Shown here: positions 57,845 to 64,000 of the stretch, piece after piece
How positions within the stretch are numbered: the first letter of the stretch is position 1
How the letters are laid out: each line of letters starts with the position of its first letter
Source of the DNA: Azospirillum brasilense
Lineage (GTDB): Bacteria > Pseudomonadota > Alphaproteobacteria > Azospirillales > Azospirillaceae
Length of the DNA: 64,000 nucleotides
NCBI RefSeq assembly: GCF_003349955.1
Contig: NZ_QLKQ01000027.1
Span: 1 to 64,000, forward strand
Direction: 5' to 3'
Program-made: the position numbers and the translations under genes
Notes under the pieces: model-generated
Databases searched by the model: none
What the model was told of the DNA's origin: nothing
Seen by the model: the letters and a program-made list of their open reading frames with translations, nothing else

Positions 57845-57920
<76 letters not shown>

Positions 57921-58673: not shown

Positions 58674-60464
58674 ATGCCGAACCTGCTGTCCCGCCGCTGG
58701 CGGGCGCTGCTGTCCGCCGGCCTGCTGGCGGCGCTGCCGCTGGAGGCCGCAGCCCAGACGCCGTCATCCGCGGCGCCGACCACGACTCCTTCCGCGGCGG
58801 GTGACGTGGCGCCGGAGCGCGCGACCGGACGGGGCAGCCGCAGCCTCGACACCGCCACGCGCCACATGGTGGCCGCCGCGAATCCGCTGGCGGCGGAGGC
58901 CGGGCGGGAGATCCTGCGGGCGGGCGGCAGCGCGGTGGACGCGGCGATCGCCGTGCAGCTCGTCCTCAATCTGGTGGAACCGCAAAGCTCCGGAGTCGGG
59001 GGCGGCGCCTTCCTGGTCCATTACGATGCCGCAACGAAGGCGGTGACCTCCCTCGACGGGCGCGAGACCGCGCCGGCCGCGGCGACTCCGGAGCGTTTCC
59101 TGGGGGCGGACGGCAAGCCGATGCCCTTCTACGACGCGGTGGTCGGCGGGCGGTCCGTCGGGGTGCCGGGCACGGTGATGCTGCTGGAGCACGCCCACCG
59201 CGCGCATGGCAAACTGCCCTGGCCCCGCCTGTTCGAGCGCGCCATCGCGCTGGCCGAGGACGGCTTCACGGTCAGCCCGCGGCTGAACGGCCAGCTGGCC
59301 ATGGAAAAGCACCTGCCGGGCAGCCCCACGGCGCGCGCCTATTTCTACCAGCCGGACGGCACGCCCTGGCCGGTCGGCCATGTGCTGAGGAATCCGGAGT
59401 TCGCGGCGACGCTGCGGGCCATCGCCGAGAAGGGCTCCGCCGCCTTCTACGAGGGTCCGATCGCCGCCGATATCGTCAAGGCGGTGACCGGCCACCCCAC
59501 CAACCCCGGCGACATGACCGAGGCCGACCTGAAGGCCTACCGGGTGAAGGAGCGGGAACCGGTCTGCGGGTCCTACCGTGTCTACACCCTGTGCGGCATG
59601 GGGCCGCCCAGCTCCGGCGGGGTCGCGGTGCTGCAGATGCTGGCCGTCCTGGAAGGGCGCGACATGGCCGCCACCCGCAACGATCCGGCGCTGGCCGCCC
59701 ATTGGCTGTCGGAGGCCGGGCGACTCGCCTTCGCCGACCGCGGCCTCTATCTGGCCGACCCGGACTTCGTGACGGTGCCGGTGAAGGGGCTGCTCGACCG
59801 CGGCTATCTGGCGGGCCGCGCCGCGCTGGTCGGCGAGCGGTCGATGGGCAAGGCCCAGCCGGGCGAGCCGCCCTTCCGGGAAGGCCGCGCCTGGGGCTTC
59901 GCCGAGGCCGAGGAGCATGGCACCAGCCACATCTCCGTGGTCGACGGGGCGGGCAACGCCGTCGCCATGACCACCACCATCGAGGACGGCTTCGGCTCCC
60001 GCCTGATGGTGCGCGGCTTCCTGCTGAACAACGAGCTGACCGACTTCGCCTTCACCCCGACGGAGGACGGCAAGCCGGTCGCCAACCGGGTGGAGCCGGG
60101 CAAGCGCCCGCGCAGCTCGATGGCGCCGACGCTGGTCTTCCGCGACGGCGCCCTGGTGGCCTCGGTGGGGTCGCCGGGCGGCAGCAACATCATCAATTAC
60201 GTGGGCAAGACGCTGGTCGCGCTGCTCGATTGGAACCTCGACCCGCAGGCCGCGGTGGACGCCCCCAACTTTGGCAGCCGCAACGGCCCGACCGAGCTGG
60301 AGCAGGGCACCGAGGCGGAGGGCTGGATCGCGGCGCTGGAGGCTCGGGGCCACACGGTCAAGGCGATGGAACTGACCTCCGGCACCCAGGCGATCGTGGT
60401 GACCGGCCAGGGGCTGTCCGGCGGTGCGGACACCCGGCGCGAGGGGGTGGCGGTCGGCGACTGA
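58674..60464 (+). CDS. ggt: Gamma-glutamyltransferase (Ggt)
   Basis: A 596-residue exported Ntn-hydrolase that cleaves glutathione and other gamma-glutamyl compounds in the periplasm. A signal peptide ends near AAAQT. The autoprocessing nucleophile is Thr417 in 'EEHGTSHISVVD', splitting the protein into large and small subunits. Other blocks are 'SGVGGGAFLVHYD', 'GPPSSGGVAVLQML' and 'RPRSSMAPTLVF' (binding Ser-Ser). The ribosome site GGGGGAGGAA precedes the ATG. It is monocistronic as far as seen. Confidence 0.95.
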   Translation: MPNLLSRRWRALLSAGLLAALPLEAAAQTPSSAAPTTTPSAAGDVAPERATGRGSRSLDTATRHMVAAANPLAAEAGREILRAGGSAVDAAIAVQLVLNLVEPQSSGVGGGAFLVHYDAATKAVTSLDGRETAPAAATPERFLGADGKPMPFYDAVVGGRSVGVPGTVMLLEHAHRAHGKLPWPRLFERAIALAEDGFTVSPRLNGQLAMEKHLPGSPTARAYFYQPDGTPWPVGHVLRNPEFAATLRAIAEKGSAAFYEGPIAADIVKAVTGHPTNPGDMTEADLKAYRVKEREPVCGSYRVYTLCGMGPPSSGGVAVLQMLAVLEGRDMAATRNDPALAAHWLSEAGRLAFADRGLYLADPDFVTVPVKGLLDRGYLAGRAALVGERSMGKAQPGEPPFREGRAWGFAEAEEHGTSHISVVDGAGNAVAMTTTIEDGFGSRLMVRGFLLNNELTDFAFTPTEDGKPVANRVEPGKRPRSSMAPTLVFRDGALVASVGSPGGSNIINYVGKTLVALLDWNLDPQAAVDAPNFGSRNGPTELEQGTEAEGWIAALEARGHTVKAMELTSGTQAIVVTGQGLSGGADTRREGVAVGD

Positions 60465-60551
60465 TCGCGGGAACCGCGCATCGCTCGCATCGTCCTGCCC
60501 GCTGTGCTAGGTACTCCGCCCTGGTCACATTCTTGTCTGGGGAGCCCTCCC

Positions 60552-61883
60552 ATGCTGCAGGCGAAGCCGCTTCGCTCATCCTCCACCGGCGCGCTGGCCG
60601 GCACCATCCGCGTGCCGGGCGACAAGTCGATTTCGCACCGGTCGCTGATGCTGGGCGCCGTTGCGGTGGGCGAGACCGTCATCCACGGCCTGCTGGAAGG
60701 GGAGGACGTGCTGAACACCGCCGCCGCCATGCGTCTGCTCGGCGCCCAGGCGGAGCGCGGCGGGGACGGCGTGTGGCGCGTGCGCGGCGTCGGTCTGGGC
60801 GGCCTGGCGGAGCCGGCGCAGGTGCTCGACATGGGCAACAGCGGCACGGCGGCGCGCCTGCTGATGGGTCTCGTCGCGTCGCACCCGATCACCTGCGTCT
60901 TCACCGGCGACGCCTCGCTGAACAAGCGCCCGATGGCCCGCGTGACCGGCCCACTGGAGCAGATGGGCGCGCGCTTCGTCGGACGGTCCGGCGGGCGGCT
61001 GCCGCTGGCCGTGGTCGGCAGCGACCGCACCGTTCCGATCACCTACCGCCTGCCGGTGGCCTCCGCCCAGGTGAAGTCGGCGATCATCCTCTGCGGCCTG
61101 AACACCGCCGGCACCACCACCGTGATCGAGGCGGAGCCGACCCGCGACCACACCGAGCTGATGCTGCGCCATTTCGGCGCCACCGTGACGACCGAGCGGA
61201 TGGAGGACGGTGCGCTCGCCGTGTCCGTCGTCGGCCAGCCGGAGCTGACCGGACGCGAGATCGTCGTGCCCGCCGACCCCAGCTCCGCCGCCTTCCCGGC
61301 GGTCGCGGCGCTGCTGCGCCCCGGCTCGGAGCTGCTGCTGCCGGGCGTCGGCATGAACCCGCGCCGCACCGGCCTCTACGACACGCTGGTCGAGATGGGC
61401 GCGAACATCGCCTTCGAGAACCGCCGCGACGAGGCGGGCGAGCCGGTGGCCGACCTGCGGGTCAAGCACGGTCCCCTCAAGGGCATCGTTGTCCCGGCGG
61501 ACCGCGCCCCCAGCATGATCGACGAGTACCCGATCCTCGCCGCCGCCGCCGCCTGCGCGGAAGGCACCACCGTCATGCTCGGCCTGAAGGAGCTGCGCGT
61601 GAAGGAGAGCGACCGCCTCGCCATGGTCGCCGACGGGCTGACCAAGTGCGGCGTGAAGGTCGAGGTCGGGGCCGACGACAGCCTGACCGTCTACGGCACC
61701 GGCACGCCGCCGCAGGGCGGCGCCACCGTCGCCACCGCCATGGACCACCGCATCGCCATGAGCTTCCTGGTGCTGGGCATGGCCACGGCCGAGCCGGTGC
61801 AGGTGGACGACGGCGCCTTCATCGACACCAGCTTCCCCGGCTTCGTCGCCCTGATGAACGGAGTCGGCGCGAAAATCTCATAG
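60552..61883 (+). CDS. aroA: 3-phosphoshikimate 1-carboxyvinyltransferase (EPSP synthase) AroA
   Basis: A 443-residue enzyme of the shikimate pathway joining PEP and shikimate-3-phosphate. Signatures are '[19 protein letters not shown]', '[17 protein letters not shown]', '[20 protein letters not shown]', and the catalytic '[14 protein letters not shown]'. This is the class typical of alphaproteobacteria ('GNSGTAARL', Ala next to the loop Gly). GGGGAG lies upstream of the ATG. Its 3' end abuts the AT-rich insert; the last residues 'GVGAKIS' are short and AT-leaning. It is normally followed by cmk. Confidence 0.97.
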
Positions 61884-61979
61884 GCTACGGAATTGCATAA
61901 GAGAAAATGCTGTGCTTACTTGTCTATCCAATAAGTCTCGATTGGATGATATCGCAGCATACTATAGTGTGGTGAGGAA

Positions 61980-62324
61980 ATGATGGGTGGACTGGCTGAA
62001 TCGCAATTATTAGGTTATGCGAGATGCGGGACCGATCAAGAGGCCATCGACAGTAAGGCAATAAGAAAGCTCATTTCATGTCTTTGCAGTGAGTTTCCCG
62101 GGAAAATCGAAGCAAAAAAATACGCAATAGGGAATAACTATTATTGGGAGGTTCATTTAAATGGTCAGAATGATAGGAGGCCAAAGCAAATAATCGAAGG
62201 AACCATTCATGTTGCTGAGAAAAAAGGGTTTTTCCAAGAATGGATAACGGACCAGTTTCGTGATTGGTTCCCAGCGAAGAAATGCGCAATTACATTTGTC
62301 GATTGTTGCGCTCGTCGGTTGTAA
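61980..62324 (+). CDS. Unknown protein A of the AT-rich insert
   Basis: A 114-residue, mostly soluble protein I do not recognise. It has 'GTDQEAIDSKAIRKLISCLC', a central 'NNYYWEVHLNGQND', 'IEGTIHVAEKKGFFQEWITD' and a Cys-rich end 'FVDCCARRL'. GTGAGGAA lies right before tandem ATG codons (61980 and 61983). A TACTATAG element about 15 bases upstream may be a -10. It is the first gene of the insert and 39 bases before the next. A toxin, antitoxin or effector role is possible but not shown. Confidence 0.72.
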   Translation: MMGGLAESQLLGYARCGTDQEAIDSKAIRKLISCLCSEFPGKIEAKKYAIGNNYYWEVHLNGQNDRRPKQIIEGTIHVAEKKGFFQEWITDQFRDWFPAKKCAITFVDCCARRL

Positions 62325-62363
62325 ATCCAATCTCTTCTGTCGAAGAACCCAGGGGGGCGTTTT

Positions 62364-63299
62364 ATGAGTTTCTTATATTACGCAGAGTACAAAGAGTTTG
62401 ATGATGTATTCCGCTTATCGGTTTCTGGATTTCCAGATTCCGTCGCGTATGGTGTCGTTGGAAAAGATGATCCGAGCCAATTAGCACAGGATCTGCTTTT
62501 GGTTGGTATTGAGTCTTGTATCAGGAATAGGGAAGCTATTCCGTGTCCATCTCACGAGCCTGATGGTGTTTATTATTCTGTTTGTCTTAAGAAAGAGAAG
62601 GTGATAGAGATAATTAACTCACTTATTCTGGATTTAAGAAATCCCAAGAATACTATTGTTGTAAATAAAGAAGAAATTGCTGAGGATCAGCAGAAAAACT
62701 TTTCTTTCTCAGTAGCAAAGATAAATATACAAGGTCTTACGAATATTGCCACCGAAAAGATGGCGGAGGATGATGCGAAAAAATTTGTTGTAAAGGGTTC
62801 AATGGTTAGCGATGAGTTTGTTAATAGCAATGAAGCAAAAAAAGACAGCATTGGTGGCTTTAAGGGTGTGATCGAGAAAATATACGAATTGGCGTTTAGG
62901 CAATACAGTATAAAGATAAAGCAGAAAATCATTGGAAGGTCGATGCATGCGCCTGTTCTGGGGGTGCTTGATAATTTAGAAGAGAAAGATAATCAAGCAA
63001 GCTTTGCTATGCTCTGTCGGGGTGTTCAGCCTGATCGTTCATGGTTGGTGGTGCCCACTTTCGGTTCGAGTGGTAAAGCAGGTGATGCTGTCTATCACGA
63101 ACATGAAGGGAAAGCCACAGACATTGACATGGTTGTAATGGATAGAAACTTTAGAGAATTTCTGGCTTGGTCTTGTGAGGTGCAGCACAAGACCAAAAAA
63201 CTCCATAAGTCTCCTCATTCGCTTGGAAAGCCTTTAGCGTCAAGTGATTGCAAGTCGCCGATGCAGTTGTACGAATCTCTGTCAACCAATGCTGGATAG
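62364..63299 (+). CDS. Unknown protein B of the AT-rich insert, HicB-like N-terminus
   Basis: A 311-residue protein. Residues about 10-95 resemble HicB antitoxins: 'FRLSVSGFPDSVAYGVVGKD', then 'SQLAQDLLLVGIESCIRNRE', 'AIPCPS', and 'VYYSVCLKKEKVIEIINSLI' in the same order as the strand-strand-helix-'IPxPS'-K-V-helix layout. No HicA partner follows. The rest is a unique domain ('LTNIATEKMAEDDAKKFVVK', 'RQYSIKIKQKIIGRSMHAPV', 'SWLVVPTFGSSGKAGDAVYH', 'IDMVVMDRNFREFLAWSCEV'). AGGGGGG precedes the ATG. HicB likeness is by eye and moderate; the function is unknown. Confidence 0.75.
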   Translation: MSFLYYAEYKEFDDVFRLSVSGFPDSVAYGVVGKDDPSQLAQDLLLVGIESCIRNREAIPCPSHEPDGVYYSVCLKKEKVIEIINSLILDLRNPKNTIVVNKEEIAEDQQKNFSFSVAKINIQGLTNIATEKMAEDDAKKFVVKGSMVSDEFVNSNEAKKDSIGGFKGVIEKIYELAFRQYSIKIKQKIIGRSMHAPVLGVLDNLEEKDNQASFAMLCRGVQPDRSWLVVPTFGSSGKAGDAVYHEHEGKATDIDMVVMDRNFREFLAWSCEVQHKTKKLHKSPHSLGKPLASSDCKSPMQLYESLSTNAG

Positions 63300-63342
63300 A
63301 TGGCTTTGCTGTAAGTTTTCCTAGCTGGGAGAGGAGAAAGAA

Positions 63343-63654
63343 ATGTCTTCGAAGATTGGTGAGAGCAAGAGCATTGATAAGATTTATGAGCTTCTAGAGC
63401 TGTACCAGAGAGTTGATGTGTTTTCAGTTGGTAATGGGGTGAAATGGAAGCGGGGGCTCAGGAATAGAATTAAACCGGAGTACAATGAATTTGCTGTTGT
63501 TGCTGAGATAAGGTCGGAGCCTTTCTTTGATGAGCAAGAGGGGGCTGGCTCTATGTATTATAGGGAGCCGCTTGATCTCCGAATAGCAATTTCTGACGAG
63601 GATGGCGATCTGCAGTTCCTTTGGGTTGACTCGCGGCGCTTCGAAAAAATATGA
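63343..63654 (+). CDS. Unknown protein C of the AT-rich insert
   Basis: A 103-residue protein that looks like a compact beta-rich domain: 'VFSVGNGVKWKRGLRNRIKP', 'EFAVVAEIRSEPFFDEQEG', 'YYREPLDLRIAISDEDGDLQ' and 'WVDSRRFEKI'. The G-x-x-V-x-W-K-x-G-L-x-N-R start and D-S-R-R-F-E end remind me of a small uncharacterised family on plasmids and integrative elements; confidence in that is low. GGAGAGGAG precedes the ATG. It is the third gene of the insert, 37 bases before cmk. Confidence 0.75.
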   Translation: MSSKIGESKSIDKIYELLELYQRVDVFSVGNGVKWKRGLRNRIKPEYNEFAVVAEIRSEPFFDEQEGAGSMYYREPLDLRIAISDEDGDLQFLWVDSRRFEKI

Positions 63655-63690
63655 CTTTGAGCCGAAAGTTATCCAGGAAGCCTTTTTGTA

Positions 63691-64000
63691 GTGAGCATGC
63701 TTAAATCTCTCATCATCACCATCGACGGCCCCGCCGCCGCGGGCAAGGGCACGCTGTCCAAGCGGGTCGCCCGGGCCTACGGCTTCGCGCATCTCGACAC
63801 CGGGGCGCTCTACCGCGCGGTCGGCGTCAGCGTCCTGCGCGCGGGCGGCGACCCGGCCGATGCGGAGGCCGCGGCCCGGGCCGCCCGCGCGCTGCGGCCG
63901 GACGACGGCATCCTGAACGACCCGGCCCTGCGCAACGACGAGGCGGCGCAGGCGGCCTCCAAGGTGGCCGCGGTGCCGGCGGTGCGGGCCGCCCTGCTCG
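63691..64000 (+). CDS. cmk: Cytidylate kinase Cmk (partial, window ends inside)
   Basis: The first 103 residues are visible; the gene continues beyond the window. The P-loop is '[17 protein letters not shown]' and '[12 protein letters not shown]' binds the nucleotide, so it is a (d)CMP kinase. The start may be GTG 63691, ten bases after GGAAG, or ATG 63697. Its first codons (LKSLIITI) are AT-leaning, close to the insert boundary. Confidence 0.95.

Follow-up and report, generated by a model that had tools for sequence, protein, structure and literature searches.

An AT-rich foreign insert between aroA and cmk in Azospirillum brasilense and its small protein of a phage and plasmid family

The last part of a 64,000-nucleotide stretch of Azospirillum brasilense DNA (assembly GCF_003349955.1, contig NZ_QLKQ01000027.1, positions 1 to 64,000, forward strand; hereafter, the window) holds an AT-rich segment at 61884-63690, placed between aroA and cmk and containing three open reading frames, which we call A, B and C. 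A first-pass annotation made from the sequence had described it as an island of three unfamiliar genes and had proposed a new defence or toxin-antitoxin system. The locus thus raises the question of where this DNA came from, how it entered a junction of core genes, and whether its products resemble such a system.

Composition and reading frames of the insert

An AT-rich foreign insert between aroA and cmk is real. The GC content of 61884-63690 is 0.422, compared with 0.697 for the whole window, 0.725 for the upstream flank aroA (60552..61883, + strand; 83-99% protein identity to aroA of genus relatives) and 0.767 for the start of the downstream flank cmk (63691..64000, + strand, running on to 64365, with an ATG at 63697). 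GC at third codon positions is 0.41 in A, 0.39 in B and 0.50 in C, and about 0.95 in the neighbouring genes, so the sharp drop in GC described earlier holds.

ORF A (61980..62324, 114 aa), ORF B (62364..63299, 311 aa) and ORF C (63343..63654, 103 aa) lie on the + strand, co-directional with aroA and cmk, and together cover 88% of 61884-63690. Each is preceded by purine-rich sequence that, judged by eye, is able to serve as a ribosome site. With 324 codons, the open stretch of B is longer than any seen when the island was sampled 1000 times by a Markov model (276 codons at most), and its GC by codon position (0.50, 0.34, 0.39) is coding-like. Open stretches as long as those of A and C appeared in 376 and 556 of the 1000 samples, respectively, so length alone proves neither. 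On sequence grounds C, unlike A, is secured as a gene by its homologues; the coding status of A is uncertain because its length is common by chance, and A could be either a gene or an open frame that arose by chance. Of the earlier description of three genes in one direction with their own ribosome sites, the three forward frames and purine-rich leaders therefore stand, but A is uncertain as a gene.

Searches with A against Pfam, PADLOC, NCBIfam and PHROGs at E up to 10 returned no family at a credible E, and none of the viral contigs contained it. A match to DUF928 (E 0.037) was at chance level, and those to plasmids (best E 0.1, Rhizobium) and phages (0.6) were taken as chance. In a phmmer search of PDB, A matched a designed repeat protein with E 2e-6, a value summed over four repeats, none of which fell below 27 alone, as well as FGF23 at E 0.8 and worse; both were judged to be chance.

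Hydropathy points to no membrane segment in any of the three ORFs (highest mean over 19 residues, 0.93), and Rfam gave nothing at its gathering score in 60000-64000. Scans for promoters and terminators gave counts near shuffle means (4 vs 2.0 and 1 vs 2.2, respectively), and a simple scan of 61600-64000 found no forward terminator-like site. The arrangement TTGGAT-15-TATAGT at 61942-61968, noticed by eye, was rejected as a promoter because its spacer is too short. The insert genes would be transcribed together, either from their own leader or from aroA, with read-through into cmk.

The aroA-cmk junction across the genus

For 42 genus relatives we measured how far the aroA stop lies from the base that aligns with the start of cmk in the window. 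These are the 45 genus genomes minus the window's own, G043, whose aroA is not within 8 kb upstream of cmk, and G029, whose aroA and cmk are on different contigs; G022 and G013 were counted once each. The distance was at most 73 bp, and often negative, in 39 of them. The three wider gaps were 186 bp in G013, 990 bp in G022 and 1,496 bp in G005, so that 4 of the 43 measured genomes, the window included, have at least 186 bp at this place. We also observed that in G043 aroA lies about 18 kb downstream of cmk, and the aroA-cmk order is thus broken there.

G005 and G022 carry unrelated cargo between the same core genes. The G005 insert has a GC of 0.60 and one 410-aa ORF (L052:6669-7898) with no Pfam match, the start of which fits what we take to be a lipoprotein-like pattern; a GC-rich hairpin with a T run, seen by eye, follows aroA in this genome. 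In G022 (L054; GC 0.62), a predicted membrane protein, for which the only match was PycTM at E 0.049, below its cut-off, is followed by a gene for ribosomal protein S15 (Pfam E 2.4e-32). The 186 bp of G013 are a GC-rich spacer. None of these three has a significant DNA match to the window's insert beyond the flanks. Within the genus, both G022 and G013 are remote from the window (aroA identity of 86% and 83%, respectively).

At E 0.001, B and C were absent from the other 44 genus genomes. A and B joined were absent from the other 81 of the 82 family genomes searched, the search returning their own place plus a match at E 0.044 elsewhere in the same genome. Among 385 genomes of the class, the joined query matched 12 others at E 0.007-0.08 through scattered query stretches, which we took as chance. 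The view that foreign DNA occupies a conserved junction was thus borne out, and comparison of the locus across relatives, which had been suggested as a check, found that the insert is not present in all of them at the same site. The further suggestion that the operon keeps its cargo from being lost is conjecture; most relatives have a closed junction, a few have other DNA in it, and these few inserts among 45 genomes fall short of a statistical definition of a hotspot.

The ends of the foreign DNA were placed by loss of homology to relatives (blastn to the junctions of three relatives, ends compared) together with composition. Homology with G005 and G013 reaches 61870 and 61877 on the left and resumes at 63706 on the right. 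The foreign stretch is therefore about 61877..63705, approximate to a few bases, and the last aroA codons and the first cmk codons are altered. The window's aroA product ends in GAKIS and stop, and that of G005 reads GARISMG; GAKIAGA or GAKIAGV and stop is found in 8 of the 12 closest measured relatives. Similarly, cmk begins with MLKSLII in the window, MPSLII in G005 and MSSSLII in the distant G013, with MGLVI in 7 of the 12 closest relatives.

The aroA and cmk trees, built from 45 and 44 sequences, respectively, after duplicate loci and sequences below 90% of full length had been omitted, both place G005 as sister to the window (support of 0.93 and 0.91). This agreement on the nearest relative gives no apparent sign of flank exchange. 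Together with the altered ends, the sister placement would fit a single ancestral opening of the junction shared by the window and G005, with contents that later came to differ, and the junction was perhaps already open in their common ancestor. However, the altered ends are weak evidence for one opening, because SLII also occurs in the distant G013 and IS near the aroA end also occurs in distant relatives (L037, L057, L062, L066 and L067); they may be old or convergent marks. The alternative is that the junction tolerates DNA and received independent insertions, those of the window and G005 being unlinked. The contents of the inserts are unrelated, two of the wider junctions are in genomes remote from the window, and the ends common to the window and G005 partly recur far away in the genus, all of which agree with separate events; against this, each of the two gene trees has these genomes as sisters, and each genome has an insert. 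We give separate events a little under an even chance.

As to the route of entry, Pfam, PADLOC, NCBIfam and PHROGs revealed no recombinase, integrase, transposase or other mobility family in A-C, and there is no tRNA at the insert site, the only tRNA of the window being at 57845-57920. The 7-bp sequence AAATCTC is directly repeated at the two edges (61873..61879 and 63703..63709, both + strand) and could be the mark of a transposition-like event. The repeat is weak, since shuffling the two 30-bp edges gave a repeat of 7 bp in 41 of 2000 trials, and no longer edge repeat was found. The insert may have arrived without an integrase of its own, through homologous recombination within the core genes on either side or through end joining at short homology.

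We favour, with a probability of roughly 0.65, the reading that the insert is accessory DNA gained horizontally in the lineage of this species, at a junction that holds unrelated gene-bearing inserts in two other members of the genus.

Protein C, its family and its gene company

Protein C was the one product for which we found a family. Using tblastn, we detected relatives on six plasmid records (four Halomonas, one Vreelandella and one Thiodictyon) with 29-37% identity and a best E of 4e-14 (NZ_CP040453.1), and weak matches at E 0.1-1 in twelve phage records, in which the same phages partly appear under two accessions. Of 43 candidate stretches of viral contigs, a six-row profile (A1) identified 5 as relatives, and a repeat scan recovered four of the same five contigs. 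Among 398 genomes of the phylum, the profile matched three others, one of which (G358) encodes the same protein as profile row L005; in 385 genomes of the class, it matched C's own place and G048, whose sequence is itself a profile row. As a single query, C had no confirmed match in genome or viral contigs, in a search that needs exact short peptides and so covers close relatives only. The statement that none of the three proteins matches a known family consequently stood for A and B and failed for C.

An alignment of twelve rows (A3) showed conservation of F27, W35, N41, V53, S70, E75, L77, D96 and R99 (P0003 numbering). In PHROGs, C matched phrog_37886 at E 0.0026; this group was matched by 4 of 9 family members and phrog_22456 by 3 of 9, and both are function-unassigned. 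Single members matched a virion structural protein (1.3e-4) and a ferredoxin family (7.7e-4). Matches of C to AtcA (E 0.096) and to three PHROGs (0.09-0.33) were at chance level.

AlphaFold2, run on six rows of the family, predicted a helix followed by a five-stranded barrel (pLDDT 80). In a viral structure library searched with Foldseek, the best match to this model was Q6V7R3 of Burkholderia phage Bcep22 (E 2.2e-7), followed by an uncultured phage and Klebsiella phage Pylas. Against PDB, alignment of the barrel with VIA-align gave best Z scores of 7.3 (9l93_A, rmsd 2.0, 60 aligned), 7.2 (NdhS) and 6.9 (NusG), with none of 993 chains at Z 8, and the best Foldseek E was 0.046. The profile matched nothing among PDB sequences at E 1, and phmmer found nothing there for B or C. 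We take these best-scoring barrels to be SH3-like, and the modelled barrel of C is probably SH3-like as well. Those parts of a report on a Bcep22-like phage that were available (PMC9144972) gave no function for C's relative.

We compared the neighbourhoods of C relatives at 15 loci, which include five of the six plasmid and three of the twelve phage matches. Genes for SSB, RdgC, ParA/ParB, a DnaC-like protein or a helicase were near the C relative in 7 of the 15. On four Halomonas plasmids (L004, L005, L007 and L008), it is located between a gene for a DsbC-like/thioredoxin-fold protein and RdgC, with SSB upstream, and three of these plasmids also have ParA and ParB. In phage CSP3 the C relative is three genes after a DnaC-like gene, at L017 it overlaps the end of the SSB gene, and at L016 it comes after a Pam3 gp34-like gene and before an ORF judged by eye to be helicase-like. 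No replication or recombination neighbour was recognised at the other 8 loci, seven of which are L010, L011, L013, L014, L015, L073 and L074, with their ORFs partly tested. From this partial gene company and the fold, C would be a small protein that binds, or serves as an adaptor to, nucleic acid or a protein of replication or recombination.

Two further features of these plasmids were observed. Directly 3' of the C relative, the four Halomonas plasmids encode similar proteins of 121-124 aa, compared by eye (L004:6312-6677, L005:6339-6707, L007:6282-6656 and L008:6288-6656); the L004 copy had no Pfam match, and no counterpart was seen in the window. On the Thiodictyon plasmid (L006:6261-12243), the genes after the C relative encode a double-AAA ATPase (Pfam AAA E 5.4e-41) and then a very large hypothetical protein, and these two are possibly a separate system.

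Such a family history could also mean that the insert is the remnant of a phage or plasmid segment that is now functionless. This would accommodate the relatives of C on plasmids and phages, the orphan status of A and B, and the AT-rich DNA. However, B keeps a frame of 311 codons with coding-like composition at its codon positions, so decay is not advanced, and at E 0.01 neither 72,556 plasmid nor 50,697 phage records gave a match to the insert DNA. We consider a functionless remnant unlikely and retain the reading of accessory DNA acquired by this lineage. If that reading is true, the locus adds a minor case of genes gained between two core genes where no mobile element can be recognised, and it draws attention to a protein family of phages and plasmids that is scattered and has no name.

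Protein B, the HicB question and known systems

The first-pass annotation had noted a HicB-like start in B. With hhalign, residues ~1-64 of B scored 31.3 against a HicB profile built from 11 of 15 PF15919 matches from relatives, with near-duplicates dropped; the maximum of 200 shuffles was 21.2, and A and C scored 9.5 and 16.3, respectively. Five held-out true HicB proteins scored 66-96, part of this gap being due to length, since B aligns over about 64 columns. In a HMMER search with a home-made HicB profile, B came first of 1370 ORFs, itself included, ahead by 1.8 bits. The aligned part ends in an IPxPS stretch. Nevertheless, Pfam at E 10 did not report HicB in B, nor did a PF15919 search of the genome at E 0.001, and thus the HicB-like start survives as a weak signal, covering residues ~1-65, that the standard searches do not report. 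A remote kinship of the N-terminus with HicB, which has a partial RNase H-like domain, is plausible from these profile comparisons. The HicB-like part may be a protein-binding module that is not tied to HicA.

In all other respects B is an orphan. Searches of plasmids, phages, 45 genus genomes and 398 genomes of the phylum found its own place alone, as did a search of genome and viral contigs that needs exact short peptides and so covers close relatives only, and for the region beyond the HicB-like part no relative was found. In Pfam, PADLOC, NCBIfam and PHROGs, B had matches at chance level alone, among them phrog_24803 (E 0.072), and a single-sequence structure model had a pLDDT of 36, too low to use.

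The earlier remark that there is no HicA neighbour was confirmed. Pfam at E 10 found no HicA in A, B or C, and their hhalign scores against a HicA profile (5 of 7 HicA matches) were reached by 45, 14 and 7 of 60 shuffles, respectively; a held-out HicA control gave E 9.7e-19. At E 0.001, the window's genome has no HicA, which is present in 6 of 21 searched genomes. Because A-C do not match HicA and the genome is without a HicA match, the insert is not a HicAB module. The genome has one HicB-family match elsewhere (L088, at G000:C101:16194-16403; PF15919 E 1.1e-7), and similar genes, typed as near-duplicates, occur in other genus genomes. Given this one HicB-family match and no HicA, a solitary HicB-like gene is not unusual there.

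We weighed the proposal of a new toxin-antitoxin or anti-phage module, in which B would neutralise or sense and A or C would be its partner or toxin, against these results. The first 65 residues of B beat every shuffle against the HicB profile, and the three co-directional ORFs are of foreign composition. In addition, long HicB proteins (216-356 residues) that have no domain for binding DNA are known from classes to which an adjacent hicA belongs by definition, and the same source mentions solitary hicB genes (PMC10865869, in the sections available). On the other hand, PADLOC gave no match for A, B or C at E 10, the HicA scores of all three are within the range of shuffles in a genome without HicA, PF15919 does not report B, and A is perhaps not a gene. 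Protein C is of a phage and plasmid family, and its 15 loci contain no relative of A or B, the best match being a chance match to B at E 0.77. The module is therefore not supported; we regard it as quite unlikely, and what credit we leave it comes from B's HicB-like start alone. Very improbable, finally, is the bolder notion that B is a new immune or conflict protein, joining a HicB-like sensor to a novel effector region of ~210 residues and served by C as a phage-derived small-barrel adaptor, in a recombinase-free cargo site where related species swap such modules; if B were an effector with a HicB-like sensor, the HicB fold would extend beyond HicA control.

We therefore return to accessory DNA gained horizontally and compare the locus with three known systems. 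Among the papers listed on Azospirillum aroA/cmk, genomic islands and defense systems, we saw nothing on the aroA-cmk junction. Hotspots of gene turnover between core genes, without recognisable mobile elements and with their contents turned over via recombination in the adjoining core genes, have been described (PMC5635113, as far as its text was available). The present junction differs from these in that the 4 genomes with additional DNA are a small share of those measured, and is like them in that related species have different DNA between aroA and cmk, with no integrase or tRNA seen.

Like HicB antitoxins, B has ~64 N-terminal residues that align with the family and end in IPxPS; unlike them, it scores much lower, has no HicA adjoining or in the genome, and is otherwise unmatched. 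Among the long HicB classes in the accessible part of PMC10865869, the 311 aa of B are between the lengths of classes 7 and 8, but in class 8, which comes nearest to B in length, the HicB fold is C-terminal rather than N-terminal. B is thus not filed as HicB.

A third likeness to described proteins is that of C to the phrog_37886 and phrog_22456 relatives, such as Q6V7R3 of Bcep22 and the Halomonas plasmid proteins. Whereas C is chromosomal and stands beside two orphans, it has the conserved barrel positions in common with them.
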